A DNA stretch of 64,000 bases, from NCBI RefSeq assembly GCF_900142125.1, contig NZ_FQZT01000002.1, forward strand, positions 62,001-126,000. Direction: 5' to 3'. Positions within the stretch are counted from its first letter, which is position 1. The number at the start of each line of letters is the position of its first letter. Of the stretch, positions 37,153-44,146 are shown one piece after another. Source of the stretch: Malonomonas rubra DSM 5091. GTDB taxonomy: Bacteria > Desulfobacterota > Desulfuromonadia > Desulfuromonadales > Geopsychrobacteraceae. The notes below the pieces were generated by a model. That model was not told where the DNA came from. It saw nothing but the letters and a program-made list of their open reading frames with translations, and made no database searches. The translations under genes were made by a program, and so were the position numbers.

Positions 37153-37182
37153 CGGGGCGCTTTTACGGCGCCCCGCTTTTTT
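37153..37182 (+). terminator. Rho-independent terminator after metG
   Basis: CGGGGCGC/GCGCCCCG (8 bp, 7-nt loop) is followed by six T. It ends 13 bp before the next start codon, so transcription of the following genes depends on readthrough or an internal promoter. Confidence 0.87.
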
Positions 37183-37195
37183 GGAGCATTTTAAA

Positions 37196-38584
37196 ATGTC
37201 TGCACAGCTTCCACTGCTGGTCGACAGCCACGCGCATCTCGATGGCGGCCAGTTCAACAACGACCGTGATGAAACCATTGCACGTGCTCACGACAACGGC
37301 ATCAGCCACATCCTGACCATCGGCTGCGATATGGAGAGCTCGGCAGCCAGCCTGGCCCTGGCCACCAAGCACGAGTATATCTACGCTGCTGTCGGGGTTC
37401 ATCCCCACGACGCTACGGAAATCAACGATGACACCCTGAAACAGCTTGAAGAGCTGCTTGGCCGTCCCAAGGTTGTCGCCCTCGGTGAAATAGGCCTCGA
37501 CTTCTTCCGTGATCGCTCGCCGCGTGACGTTCAACGGGAAGCTTTCCGTAAGCAGATCCGCCTTGCACGTAAAGTCGGCAAACCGATTATCGTGCATGAC
37601 CGCGATGCCCACGACGAGGTCCTGCAGATCCTCGAAGAAGAGAACGCGGCTGAAGTCGGCGGCGTGCTGCACTGCTTCAGCGGCGATGTGGCAATGGCGA
37701 AAAAATGCCTGGAGATGGGCTTTTACCTCTCTTTTCCCGGAACTATCACCTATCCGAAGAATGAAGCGGCTCGCGATGTTGTCCGCGCGGTCCCGATCGA
37801 CAAGATTCTGGTCGAGACTGACTGCCCTTACCTGTCTCCGCAAAAGTTTCGCGGTAAACGAAATGAACCGGCTTATGTGCGTTACACAGCGGAGAAGGTT
37901 GCCGAAATCAAGGGGCTGACAATAGAAGATGTCGCCCGCGTCACCAGCCGCAACTGTTTTGACCTGTTTGGTTTCGGAGAGGTCGACCAGAGCACCAAGA
38001 TCGCCTACCAGATCCGCAATTCGCTTTACCTGAACATCACCAACCGCTGCACCAACCACTGTATCTTCTGTGCAAAGTTCAGTGACTACGTGGTCAAAGG
38101 GCACGAACTCTTCCTCGAGCGGGAACCGACGGTCGGAGAAGTCAAACAGGCAATCGGTGACCCGAGCAGCTACGATGAAGTGGTTTTCTGCGGCTACGGT
38201 GAACCGCTGCTGCGCCTCGATCTGATCAAAGAGATCGCCGGCTGGCTCAAGCAACAGGGCGTTAAGGTCCGTATCAACAGTGACGGTCAAGCCAATCTGG
38301 TTCACAAGCGCAACATCCTGCCGGAGCTGGCTGGACTGGTCGATGCGATCTCGGTTTCTCTTAACGCGCCGAACGCTGATGAATACCAGCGCCTTTGCCA
38401 ATCGGGTTTCGGTAGCGACGGTTATCAGGCAGTAAAAGATTTTATCCGCCAGGCTCCTGAATTCATCCCGGATGTTACGGCAACAGCCGTCACCGTTCCC
38501 GGCGTCGATATTGCGGCCTGCGAGCAGGTAGCGAAAGAGCTGGGCGTGCAGTTCCGCGTTCGCGAATACCAGGAAGTCGGCTGA
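37196..38584 (+). CDS. Fusion of TatD-family hydrolase and TatD-associated radical SAM protein
   Basis: Residues 1-258 are a complete TatD-type metal-dependent DNase/hydrolase: H12 and H14 in DSHAHLD, E98 in GEIGLD, H134, H159 and D209 in VETDCPYL. Residues 270-462 are a radical SAM domain with the iron-sulphur motif C285-TNH-C289-IF-C292 and FCGYGEPLLR. Separate adjacent genes of this pair are known, and here they are one frame with no internal stop. I chose ATG at 37196 with GGAG 9 nt upstream. The TTG at 37181 lies in the terminator. The substrate of the radical SAM half is unknown. Confidence 0.92.
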   Translation: MSAQLPLLVDSHAHLDGGQFNNDRDETIARAHDNGISHILTIGCDMESSAASLALATKHEYIYAAVGVHPHDATEINDDTLKQLEELLGRPKVVALGEIGLDFFRDRSPRDVQREAFRKQIRLARKVGKPIIVHDRDAHDEVLQILEEENAAEVGGVLHCFSGDVAMAKKCLEMGFYLSFPGTITYPKNEAARDVVRAVPIDKILVETDCPYLSPQKFRGKRNEPAYVRYTAEKVAEIKGLTIEDVARVTSRNCFDLFGFGEVDQSTKIAYQIRNSLYLNITNRCTNHCIFCAKFSDYVVKGHELFLEREPTVGEVKQAIGDPSSYDEVVFCGYGEPLLRLDLIKEIAGWLKQQGVKVRINSDGQANLVHKRNILPELAGLVDAISVSLNAPNADEYQRLCQSGFGSDGYQAVKDFIRQAPEFIPDVTATAVTVPGVDIAACEQVAKELGVQFRVREYQEVG

Positions 38585-38611: not shown

Positions 38612-39979
38612 ATGTCCAGTTACGACTACGATCTGTTTGTTATCGGTGCAGGCTCCGGCGGTGTTCGCACTGCGCGGATGGCAGCCGCAGAAGGCATCAA
38701 GGTTGCGGTGGCCGAGAAAAGCAAACCGGGCGGTACCTGCGTCAACCTCGGCTGCGTGCCGAAAAAGCTCTACGTTCACGCCGCTGAATATGGTGCCGGT
38801 TTTTTGCAATCCCCCGGTTTCGGTTGGCAGAGCCAGGCGCCACTGTTCGACTGGCCAACCCTGCGCGACAACAAATCGGAAACAATTACCAGGCTCAACG
38901 GCATGTACACTGAAATCCTTGGTAAGGCTGGTGTAGAAATGATCGACGGTCATGCCCGCGTTACCGGACCGAACGAGGTTGACGTTGCCGGCAAGAGATA
39001 CAGTGCCGAACGAATTCTGCTCGCGACCGGCGGACGTCCATCCCTACCGGAGATTCCGGGCAGCGAGTATCTCCTTTCCTCCGATCAGATTTTCGACCTA
39101 CCCGAGTTGCCGAAAAGAATGCTGATTGTCGGCGGTGGCTACATCGCCACCGAGTTCACCGGCATCTTTCACGGACTCGGTGTTAACGTCACCCAGATCT
39201 ATCGCCGTGAACTGTTCCTGCGCGGGTTCGACACAGATATCCGTGAGTTCGTCGCCAAGCAGATGCGTGAAAGTGGCATCGACCTGCGTTTCAATTGCGA
39301 CCTGAAACAGGTTGTTAAAAACGCTGACGGCAGCCTCAACGTGACCCTGAAGGATGGTAGTAATCTGCAAACGGATCTGATCCTGGCGGCAACCGGCCGT
39401 GTGCCGAACACGGAAAATCTCGGTTTGGACGAGGTTGGCGTGAAACTGGGAGAAAATGGCCGGGTTCTGGTTGACGATTTCTACCAGACCAATATTCCAT
39501 CAATCTACGCCCTCGGCGACTTGATTGATCGCATGCAACTGACACCTGTTGCGCTGGCGGAAGGAATGACACTGGTTCGCCATCTCTATAAAGGCGGAGC
39601 TGAAAAGCTCGATTATTCTTTGGTTCCAACCGCGGTGTTCAGTAAACCGAACATCGGCACCGTCGGCCTGACAGAAGAAGAAGCGATCGAGCAATATCCA
39701 CAAATCGATGTTTACAGCGCCAACTTCCGTTCGCTCAAACACGCCCTCTCTGGTAGCAGCGAACGGGTACTGATGAAACTGCTGGTCGACCCGGCAACCG
39801 ACAAAGTGGTCGGCGCCCACATGGCGGGAGAAATGGCAGGCGAAACCATCCAGGGAATCGCCGTCGCATTGAAGGCCGGAGCAACCAAAACGAATTTCGA
39901 CAAAACCATCGGTATCCACCCGACCAGTGCCGAGGAATTTGTCACCATGCGCACGAAAACCCGAACCGTTTCAAAATAG
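38612..39979 (+). CDS. gor: Glutathione-disulfide reductase-type flavoenzyme
   Basis: This 455-residue pyridine nucleotide-disulfide oxidoreductase has FAD motif GAGSGGVRTA (residues 12-21), redox cysteines C43 and C48 in GGTCVNLGCVPKK, and NAD(P)-site GGGYIATEF followed by YRRELFLRGFD. The paired arginines favour NADPH. The C-terminal catalytic histidine is in GIHPTSAEEF. The whole pattern fits glutathione reductase better than dihydrolipoamide dehydrogenase or mercuric reductase. It ends 10 bp before a SelW-like selenoprotein, suggesting one redox unit. Whether the host makes glutathione cannot be seen here. Confidence 0.88.
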   Translation: MSSYDYDLFVIGAGSGGVRTARMAAAEGIKVAVAEKSKPGGTCVNLGCVPKKLYVHAAEYGAGFLQSPGFGWQSQAPLFDWPTLRDNKSETITRLNGMYTEILGKAGVEMIDGHARVTGPNEVDVAGKRYSAERILLATGGRPSLPEIPGSEYLLSSDQIFDLPELPKRMLIVGGGYIATEFTGIFHGLGVNVTQIYRRELFLRGFDTDIREFVAKQMRESGIDLRFNCDLKQVVKNADGSLNVTLKDGSNLQTDLILAATGRVPNTENLGLDEVGVKLGENGRVLVDDFYQTNIPSIYALGDLIDRMQLTPVALAEGMTLVRHLYKGGAEKLDYSLVPTAVFSKPNIGTVGLTEEEAIEQYPQIDVYSANFRSLKHALSGSSERVLMKLLVDPATDKVVGAHMAGEMAGETIQGIAVALKAGATKTNFDKTIGIHPTSAEEFVTMRTKTRTVSK

Positions 39980-39989
39980 GAGCAGAGTG

Positions 39990-40208
39990 ATGAAAATCAG
40001 CATCGAATACTGCGGCCAGTGAAACTACCGCGCTCGTGCTGCCAGTCTGGCAGAGAGATTTAAAAAAGAACTGAACGCCGAGGTTGAAGTTATTGAATCC
40101 CACGGCGGCGCATATGAGATCACCGTCGATGGAGAACTGATCTATTCGAAAAAAGAAACCGGCCATTTCCCGAATGAAAATCGGATATTGAAAGACTTGG
40201 CAGAATAA
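39990..40208 (+). CDS. SelW-like (Rdx family) selenoprotein, in-frame UGA read as selenocysteine
   Basis: Read through one TGA at 40020-40022, the frame gives 72 residues: MKISIEYCGQ-U-NYRARAASLAERFKKEL and on to a TAA at 40206. C8-G-Q-U11 is the CxxU redox motif of the thioredoxin-like Rdx/SelW family. The length, beta-alpha-beta layout and GAYEITVDGELIYSKKETGHFPN segment also match that family. GGAG lies 7 nt before the ATG. A hairpin with a GTC loop sits just after the UGA (separate entry). Conservation of frame on both sides of the TGA argues against a pseudogene. It probably works with the flavoenzyme upstream. The selenocysteine machinery is not in this window. Confidence 0.93.
40039..40053 (+). 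promoter_or_regulatory. Bacterial SECIS hairpin of the SelW-like gene
   Basis: CTGCCA-GTC-TGGCAG forms a 6-bp stem with the loop GTC. The loop G is the 23rd base after the UGA, inside the window used by SelB, and bacterial SECIS loops typically carry a G-U at the apex. Confidence 0.85.
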
Positions 40209-43224: not shown

Positions 43225-43710
43225 ATGAAGAAGAATAAGAACTCTCTGCTGATAGACATCGGATGGTGCGAATGGGTTTCTTTTCCCGCGCTGAAAATCC
43301 CGGCAATTGAGGCCGAGATAGTCAACGAAGCTCGTCAATCAATCCTCAACGTTTTCGACTTTTCAACGTTTAAGGAAGGCGAAGACCTGATGATCAGTTT
43401 CGGCGTTCATCCGATTCAAAATTCAGACGAGGTTGAAGTTTACTCTGTCATGCCGGTCAAGACCAGGCGCCTGGTCAACACCCCGGATGGTGACCGCGAG
43501 TGGTGCTACGTTATAGAGACCGAGATGCGGATCGGCTCGATGAAGAAAAATATCGAATTGACCCTGGTAAAAAGCGAGGACTCCCTCTTCCGTCTGCACC
43601 TCGCTCCCAAAACCATCAAAAGCCTGGTGCGGATCAATCCGCAAAAGAGCTACCTCACGGGTCAAATCCTCGGTAATTTTTCCGAGCGTGCCGCGCTGGG
43701 CGCGACCTGA
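43225..43710 (+). CDS. RimB/RimK-associated protease-domain protein lacking the catalytic motif
   Basis: The 161-residue protein matches the retropepsin-like family often called ATP-dependent zinc protease or RimB. Matching segments are IGWCEWVSFPALKIPAIEAEI, VMPVKTRRLVNTPDGDREWCYVIETEMRIG, ELTLVKSEDSLFRLHL and a C-terminal KSYLTGQ. In active members the first block continues DTGAxTS with a later LHA. Here the same positions read V33-N34-E35-A36-R37-Q38-S39 and L41-N42-V43, so the catalytic aspartate and glycine are gone. It is probably a non-catalytic binding or regulatory protein. GGAG lies 10 nt before the ATG. No RimK glutamate ligase gene is nearby. Confidence 0.72.
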   Translation: MKKNKNSLLIDIGWCEWVSFPALKIPAIEAEIVNEARQSILNVFDFSTFKEGEDLMISFGVHPIQNSDEVEVYSVMPVKTRRLVNTPDGDREWCYVIETEMRIGSMKKNIELTLVKSEDSLFRLHLAPKTIKSLVRINPQKSYLTGQILGNFSERAALGAT

Positions 43711-43730: not shown

Positions 43731-43768
43731 AAAAAGCCGGTTTCACAATTGTGAAACCGGCTTTTTTT
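43731..43768 (+). terminator. Bidirectional terminator, perfect palindrome
   Basis: A stem of up to 18 bp centred on CACAATTGTG, with AAAAA on one side and TTTTTTT on the other, lies between the convergent RimB-like gene and the selenoprotein glutaredoxin gene. It should end both transcripts. Confidence 0.92.
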
Positions 43769-44100
43769 CATTCCTCCAACGCCATTTCGTACAGCTTCTG
43801 CGACCAACCGCTAATTTTCTGGCCGTTGATTACCGCAAAAGGAACACCACGCCCAGTATCCAGCTGCTGCTTACGTTTCGCCGCAGCGGCATCTTCTTCA
43901 ATATCGTAGACCGTTACCTCAACCCCCCGACTGGCCAAAAAACTTTTGGCCTGGATACAGTAGGGTCACCAACTGGTCACATAGAGTTCGGCAACATCTT
44001 TTTTCTCGTTCTCAGCTGCCATGGTCTCCAGCGGGGCAAGAGTCAGGAGCAAAACGGCGACCAACATCAAGCCCAGGATTTTCTTTAATTCTCGATTCAC
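43768..44100 (-). CDS. Exported glutaredoxin-like selenoprotein with UPYC motif, in-frame UGA
   Basis: From GTG at 44100 (GGAG 6 nt upstream) to TGA at 43768-43770, the frame is 110 residues with one internal TGA at codon 45 (43966-43968). Residues 1-29 look like a signal peptide (hydrophobic 8-24, then ETMAA). The mature part is glutaredoxin-like: AELYVTSW-U45-P-Y-C48, the cis-proline P87 in GVPFAVINGQKISGW, and the VEVTVYDIEED strand. Selenocysteine replaces the first active-site cysteine of the CPYC motif. A GTT-loop hairpin follows the UGA. An export signal on a selenoprotein glutaredoxin suggests periplasmic redox work. Read as ordinary stop, it would lose the fold. Confidence 0.9.
43933..43951 (-). 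promoter_or_regulatory. Bacterial SECIS hairpin of the glutaredoxin-like gene
   Basis: On the minus strand GGCCAAAA-GTT-TTTTGGCC forms a perfect 8-bp stem with a GTT loop. The loop G is the 23rd base after the UGA, the same distance as in the SelW-like gene. Confidence 0.83.
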
Positions 44101-44146
44101 TTTCGACTCCAGATCGATATGAGCTGACAATTAACCGATAGGCAGG

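Follow-up and report, generated by a model that had tools for sequence, protein, structure and literature searches.

A probable exported selenocysteine glutaredoxin-like protein in Malonomonas rubra

Does Malonomonas rubra DSM 5091 export a glutaredoxin that carries selenocysteine (Sec) in its active site? The question is raised by a small gene in the window, the whole 64,000-nucleotide stretch of DNA analysed here, in which a TGA stands in frame at the first position of a glutaredoxin motif. By computation we describe the frame of this gene, the Sec machinery of its host, the hairpin behind the TGA, and the conservation, fold and hydrophobic N terminus of the product. We conclude that the gene very probably encodes a small exported redox protein with an active-site Sec.

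The gene, its frame and its product

The gene runs on the minus strand from a GTG start (44100-44098) to a final TGA stop (43770-43768); the plus-strand reading of 43768-44100 gives no sensible protein and was rejected. The features of the locus are these:

43768..44100, minus strand: predicted coding sequence of an exported selenocysteine glutaredoxin-like protein, 110 codons plus TGA stop; PF00462 at 46.1 bits (cut-off 22.9)
44107..44110, minus strand: GGAG, a Shine-Dalgarno-like site 6 nt 5' of the GTG start, read directly
44014..44100, minus strand: predicted signal peptide, codons 1-29 (MNRELKKILGLMLVAVLLLTLAPLETMAA), from hydropathy, with the cleavage site placed by eye; the structural model has a helix and then a low-confidence stretch
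43966..43968, minus strand: UGA, putative Sec codon, codon 45; TGA also in two relatives (G075 and G084), a Cys codon in 37 exported relatives
43957..43968, minus strand: U-P-Y-C active-site motif, codons 45-48
43840..43842, minus strand: codon of Pro87 in a VP motif (Val86-Pro87), by homology the cis-proline of the thioredoxin fold; the column (P53) is invariant in 15 homologues
43731..43766, no strand assigned: perfect 16-bp inverted repeat with a 4-nt loop and A and T runs at its ends, likely a terminator between this gene and a convergent RimB-like gene, which it could serve too

A preliminary description of the locus had named an internal TGA at codon 45 that opens a UPYC motif, a proline at position 87 and a signal-peptide-like N terminus. 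All three are borne out: the TGA (43968-43966) is followed by CCC TAC TGT, Pro87 (43842-43840) comes directly after Val86, and R and K residues precede the hydrophobic stretch ILGLMLVAVLLL.

Translation of the frame with Sec at the internal TGA gives MNRELKKILGLMLVAVLLLTLAPLETMAAENEKKDVAELYVTSWUPYCIQAKSFLASRGVEVTVYDIEEDAAAAKRKQQLDTGRGVPFAVINGQKISGWSQKLYEMALEE. The protein exceeds the gathering score of PF00462, the Pfam glutaredoxin family, and its fold is thioredoxin-like: the domain has [CU]xxC at its first helix, and a VP precedes the strand that comes next. The predicted structure, made from a two-sequence alignment, has a mean pLDDT of 80.6 (81-93 in blocks of the domain) and matches glutaredoxin-like chains, best 3zij and also cGrx1 (7c10, 29% identity). 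No NCBIfam model was reached at its cut-off: the best match, the YruB-type TIGR02196, scored 57.5 of 88.55 bits; the glutaredoxin 3 models TIGR02181 and NF007923 scored 42.9 of 90 and 35.2 of 129 bits; and the UXX-star selenoprotein models NF041212, NF041114 and NF047338 scored 34.8 of 66, 22.7 of 72 and 22.9 of 97 bits.

Selenocysteine machinery of the host

Can the host read UGA as Sec? A profile search of the genome found selB at 352.7 bits (cut-off 242.25), and tRNA-Sec scored 69.9 bits (gathering 47), with anticodon tca according to ARAGORN. The selA and selD genes were recognised by reading the open reading frames beside selB rather than by profile; selA-selB-selD form one run (L003, 365-4798, minus strand). 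The selD frame itself runs on upstream through a UGA (SGUAAKIG), so that selD is apparently a selenoprotein gene whose listed start lies too late.

Two observations had been named beforehand as ones that would speak against Sec, a host without SelB and relatives whose active-site codon is TAA or TAG. The host has selB, above its cut-off, and no homologue that was read carries TAA or TAG at that codon. Three apparent matches of this kind were set aside: those of G517 and G310 are terminal stops, and the TAA of G122 lies five codons past a normal CPYC.

The window holds a second candidate:

39990..40208, plus strand: SelW-like selenoprotein gene, PF10262 at 71.5 bits; ATG at 39990, TGA at 40020-40022, hairpin at 40039-40053, TAA at 40206-40208

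The hairpin behind the UGA

Is the UGA followed by a signal for Sec insertion? The candidate is this:

43933..43951, minus strand: bacterial SECIS-like hairpin GGCCAAAA-GTT-TTTTGGCC, bases 15-33 after the UGA, loop G at 43943

As first described, it has a GTT loop whose G is base 23 after the UGA, on an 8-bp stem. The same description called it identical to the hairpin of the SelW-like gene, which holds for the spacing (G at 23 in both) and fails for the sequence (CTGCCA-GTC-TGGCAG in the SelW-like gene). The two strands of the window together have 2,344 TGA triplets, and only that of codon 45 is followed by a stem of at least 8 bp with a 3-nt loop and G at 23. The folding energy taken alone is unremarkable (z = -1.92; 10 of 200 shuffles fold as well), and we discarded this weak z-score as proof of the hairpin.

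The strongest support for the predicted hairpin is comparative. An unbroken stem of 7-8 bp with G at 23 was found in 11 of 12 UGA genes scanned, and the longest stem at the same place in 37 exported Cys relatives is 6 bp. The exception, G084, the third UGA gene of the host's family, has a longest unbroken stem of 4 bp and C as base 23, and folding gives it 8 pairs with one bulge; this imperfect hairpin counts against the selenoprotein explanation. When the UGA genes are aligned, 90.6% of the stem cells are paired. The percentage paired, the cells with double changes and the covariation score exceed all 500 shuffles. Two of eight stem pairs are changed on both sides (equalled in 59 of 500 shuffles and in two of six slid controls), and the number of further pair types was equalled in 429 of 500 shuffles. 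Covariation of the stem is modest.

Similar hairpins stand in cytoplasmic UGA glutaredoxins of other classes (L083-L097), and the hairpin GGCGAAAGAGTTTCTTTCGC recurs exactly in 4 of 14 other-class genes (G484, G468, G368 and G389). A conserved A-[KE]-S-F, six codons after the active site, may ease the evolution of a SECIS hairpin there.

Conservation in a same-genus relative

The same-genus relative G075 has the TGA, UPYC and an identical 19-nt hairpin. Between the host gene and G075, codons for shared residues are identical in 9 of 9 cases from the UGA to the hairpin and in 18 of 42 in the rest of the gene (Fisher p 0.002); for the hairpin codons alone the figure is 6 of 6 (p 0.022). Differences 3' of the UGA fall 17/8/30 on codon positions 1/2/3, which fits the expectation for translated sequence.

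Could the TGA be a sequencing error, or mark a pseudogene cut short after 44 codons? A single base change, TGC or TGT to TGA, would suffice. However, the TGA recurs in G075 and G084, the hairpin of G075 is identical, the codons 3' of the TGA evolve as protein and the machinery is present; we regard error or decay as very improbable. The selenoprotein reading is thus upheld by the machinery in the genome, by the UGA and hairpin kept in G075, and by Cys in the 37 exported homologues. An in-frame UGA where homologues have Cys, a hairpin with a G in its loop soon after it and the machinery are all found here; Sec is presumably incorporated at codon 45.

The two loci share AsmA-like, FmdB-like, RimB-like, DUF815 ATPase and AddA genes as neighbours, and no neighbour gene at either locus names a substrate. 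The RimB-like protein (43225-43710, plus strand) scores 41.7 of 200 bits and is 90.7% identical to its G075 counterpart. Its gene lies away from both RimK genes found (L076, L077), one of which adjoins a RimB homologue of its own.

Distribution of exported and UGA-bearing forms

How common are such genes? Homologue matches at E 1e-8 were found in 30 of 136 genomes of the order and 77 of 277 of the class; among them the active-site TGA occurs in the host (G000), G075 and G084. The host's own family, with matches in 23 of 44 genomes, yielded the same three TGA places. A further match, G105, was rejected: its TGA is outside the domain and precedes an ordinary cytoplasmic-type glutaredoxin with CPYC. 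A Pfam search of family f25 found PF00462 in 56 of 76 genomes and nine further TGA places. In a phylum sample (133 of 395 genomes matching) there were at least 46 TGA rows, 6 in the host's class, where G160, G161 and G144 were added, and 40 in other classes. All 40 were read and 39 have UGA at the active site; the TGA of the other, G561, is only its final stop. One scan of genome contigs gave a single Nitrospirae homologue, which bears Cys.

The class as a whole thus holds at least 15 exported glutaredoxin-like genes with an active-site UGA, the counts from the class-wide PF00462 and phylum searches being lower bounds. The preliminary description had thought an exported selenocysteine glutaredoxin uncommon. 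That view does not survive: exported forms are ordinary in the class, and the 15 found with UGA all have a hydrophobic N terminus. The surprise of finding one here is moderate, since the class repeatedly has exported glutaredoxins, some of which carry Sec.

Predicted export of the product

Signal peptides were judged from hydropathy and by eye, as a basic n-region, a hydrophobic core and a small residue before the cleavage site. The hydrophobic segment of the host gene has a mean Kyte-Doolittle value of 3.25 over 12 residues. The claim of export is strengthened by the relatives: all 15 in-class UGA genes have 12-residue means of 2.23-3.42, and of the 42 Cys homologues compared, 37 lie above 2.0 and the remaining five belong to the cytoplasmic type. 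Among 39 other-class UGA genes, the 31 measurable reach at most 1.57, and eight N termini are too short to measure. Within the genes read, then, Sec goes with export in the host's class and with the cytoplasm in other classes.

In the host's own family, 0 of 20 places above 69 bits have an internal TGA (the host's own CPYC protein, which lacks a signal peptide, scores 79.4 bits). The best place in family f25 scores 58.5 bits and none exceeds 69, so the comparison with cytoplasmic types is limited to the host's own family. One exported UGA glutaredoxin (L080, from G160) has LLAC near its N terminus and is possibly a lipoprotein.

An internal ATG at 44022, with GGAG 3 nt upstream, could instead start a cytoplasmic protein (MAAENEKKDVAEL...), a short selenocysteine glutaredoxin like those of other classes, which were read without a strongly hydrophobic N terminus. 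Yet the GTG at 44100 also has a GGAG, 6 nt upstream, and the frame that it begins is open and hydrophobic; Cys relatives such as G065 begin MHPVKSILLLTLILLLFSG. The N terminus of G075 is hydrophobic though its sequence differs, and before its domain only GTG and TTG occur, no ATG. The internal start is unlikely, and export from the GTG start is the reading we keep.

Origin of selenocysteine in the host's branch

Did Sec arise separately in this branch? We built a tree of 55 rows and 77 columns, few columns, on which the bootstrap is not fully settled; in it the host groups with G075 (99/96), next to Cys forms from their own family (94/87), and the f25 UGA genes are a clade apart (100/100). At least three U/C changes are needed on the best tree. 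The place of the host and G075 among Cys forms suggests a Cys-to-Sec change of their own, most likely within the host's genus branch of the exported Cys glutaredoxins, a widespread family.

Alternatively, Sec may have a single origin shared with the f25 UGA genes, the adjoining Cys forms being later reversions. A single clade of the 12 UGA rows is compatible with the AU test (p 0.0714), and the hairpins are alike (GGCCAAAAGTTTTTTGGCC and GGCGGAAAGTTTTTTCGCC), although this likeness may stem from the similar residues encoded there (A-[KE]-S-F). Against a single origin, the constrained tree is 19.7 log-likelihood units worse, the best tree with its three changes places the pair with Cys forms, and the 37 Cys relatives have no comparable hairpin. 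Holding the three own-family UGA rows together is likewise not rejected (p 0.17). We consider a single origin possible but the less probable course, and prefer a change within the genus branch. In 17 families, most of them thiol-based redox proteins, PMC1794560 reports 33 changes from Cys to Sec, a pattern that the host case fits.

Proposed mechanism and electron donor

The product is most likely a periplasmic selenol/thiol reductase. SelB and tRNA-Sec would read the UGA owing to the hairpin 15-33 nt downstream, and signal-peptide cleavage would leave a domain of about 80 residues as a reductant in the periplasm. There the nucleophilic selenolate of U45 would attack a disulfide or oxidised thiol, and Cys48 would resolve the mixed bond, giving an Se-S bond. 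That bond would be re-reduced, more likely by a CcdA-like protein than by glutathione. We infer the periplasmic location and the direction of electron flow, and the donor and substrates named here are likewise putative. A putative envelope redox role, as first proposed, is reasonable; the peroxide role proposed with it found no specific support.

What favours a CcdA-like donor? DsbD_TM exceeds its cut-off at four places in the host (the weakest 28.1 versus 27.1 bits). No GshB was found, the PF02955 matches to glutathione synthase turning out to be RimK ligases, and no GshF-type enzyme, the best match scoring 32.6 of 425 bits; these searches covered GshB and, of the GshA families, GshF alone. 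Four DsbD/CcdA-family membrane proteins, with no GshB- or GshF-type match above its cut-off, favour CcdA-like re-reduction over glutathione.

The window also encodes a Gor-like protein (38612-39979, plus strand), at 605.5 bits versus the NF004776 cut-off of 480 and below the cut-offs of TIGR01424 and TIGR01421. It argues that the host has some glutathione-like thiol, and counts against a CcdA donor. The product could on this evidence be a glutathione-coupled oxidoreductase, using glutathione that reaches the periplasm by export or uptake and is recycled by the Gor-like enzyme. The clostridial selenocysteine glutaredoxin cGrx1 is described as GSH-reduced (PMC7642778), and glutathione is said to be the partner of an exported glutaredoxin in the periplasm of E. 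coli (Eser 2009, as cited in PMC7726332). The missing GshB and GshF-type matches count against such coupling, however, as do the glutaredoxin 3 equivalog models, whose cut-offs lie far above the scores of the product. We hold glutathione coupling to be rather doubtful. The reading we prefer, and consider likely, is a secreted glutaredoxin-fold selenoprotein (U45) acting as a periplasmic reductant, with a CcdA-like donor likelier than glutathione and with Sec having replaced Cys in the genus branch.

The SelW-like gene follows the Gor-like gene by 10 bp, an apparent gor-selW unit (38612-40208, plus strand) in a host without recognised GshB or GshF. Beside it lies a TatD-radical SAM fusion (37181-38584, plus strand; TIGR04038 at 296.6 bits), about 5 kb from the glutaredoxin-like gene.

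Relation to known proteins

Among the closest parallels are the exported UGA glutaredoxins of family f25 (L066-L074), which resemble the host gene in their signal-peptide-like N terminus and hairpin G at 23. They differ in having UGYC, UTYC or USYC, 24-28% identity over the domain (four aligned), IVP versus GVP in the host, and a separate clade in the best tree. A TatD-radical SAM fusion adjoins the UGA gene at seven of nine f25 loci (L068-L074). Exported DUF4124-glutaredoxin proteins (such as G084 and L040) share an exported glutaredoxin domain, over which identity is 49%, and G084 also bears UGA (UGYC); unlike the host gene, in which DUF4124 is absent, they carry this extra N-terminal domain (50.9 bits). 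A literature search found no paper that combines DUF4124 and glutaredoxin. What looks distinct about the host gene is its branch, a UGA pair of its own genus among Cys forms.

Seven genomes of genus g80, which is probably Geobacter, bear a UGA gene, and none of them has another PF00462 match; if the genus is Geobacter, this selenoprotein is probably GSU2812 in G. sulfurreducens. PMC7726332 describes GSU2812 as an exported periplasmic glutaredoxin-family protein raised under cobalt stress, and like the host gene it combines PF00462 with a signal peptide. The word selenocysteine does not occur in that paper. The likeness suggests, by analogy with what is reported there, that the product may act where metals or oxidants damage thiols of the envelope.

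Surveys of prokaryotic selenoproteomes list selenocysteine glutaredoxins, one of them from Geobacter sulfurreducens (PMC1794560; PMC13188914, with WP_010943784.1 as example; PMC1242214). The survey proteins (Grx, UxxC) resemble the host gene in PF00462, Sec in first position, a bacterial SECIS and Sec machinery; "periplasm" and "signal peptide" occur nowhere in PMC1794560 or PMC13188914. From Clostridium oremlandii, cGrx1 (7c10) shares the fold, the U(C)PxC motif and its nature as a native selenoprotein (PMC7642778), and differs in its 29% identity and a solved chain of 84 residues. Within the partial coverage of our literature search, no paper was found describing an exported selenocysteine glutaredoxin.

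Implications

Across the class, we offer only as a tentative idea that Sec repeatedly replaced Cys in exported, not cytoplasmic, glutaredoxins, giving a glutathione-independent, CcdA-fed selenol reductase that would repair metal- or oxidant-damaged envelope thiols, whereas other classes of the phylum have Sec in cytoplasmic glutaredoxins. Annotation readily misses such UGA genes or breaks them into fragments. Selenium comes at a high cost and oxidises readily, so a redox family in which some exported proteins carry Sec and their sisters in close relatives carry Cys offers a natural Cys/Sec pair for studying the benefit of Sec in the periplasm. The finding also suggests that the envelope of these bacteria may have a reducing route free of glutathione, which can be tested.
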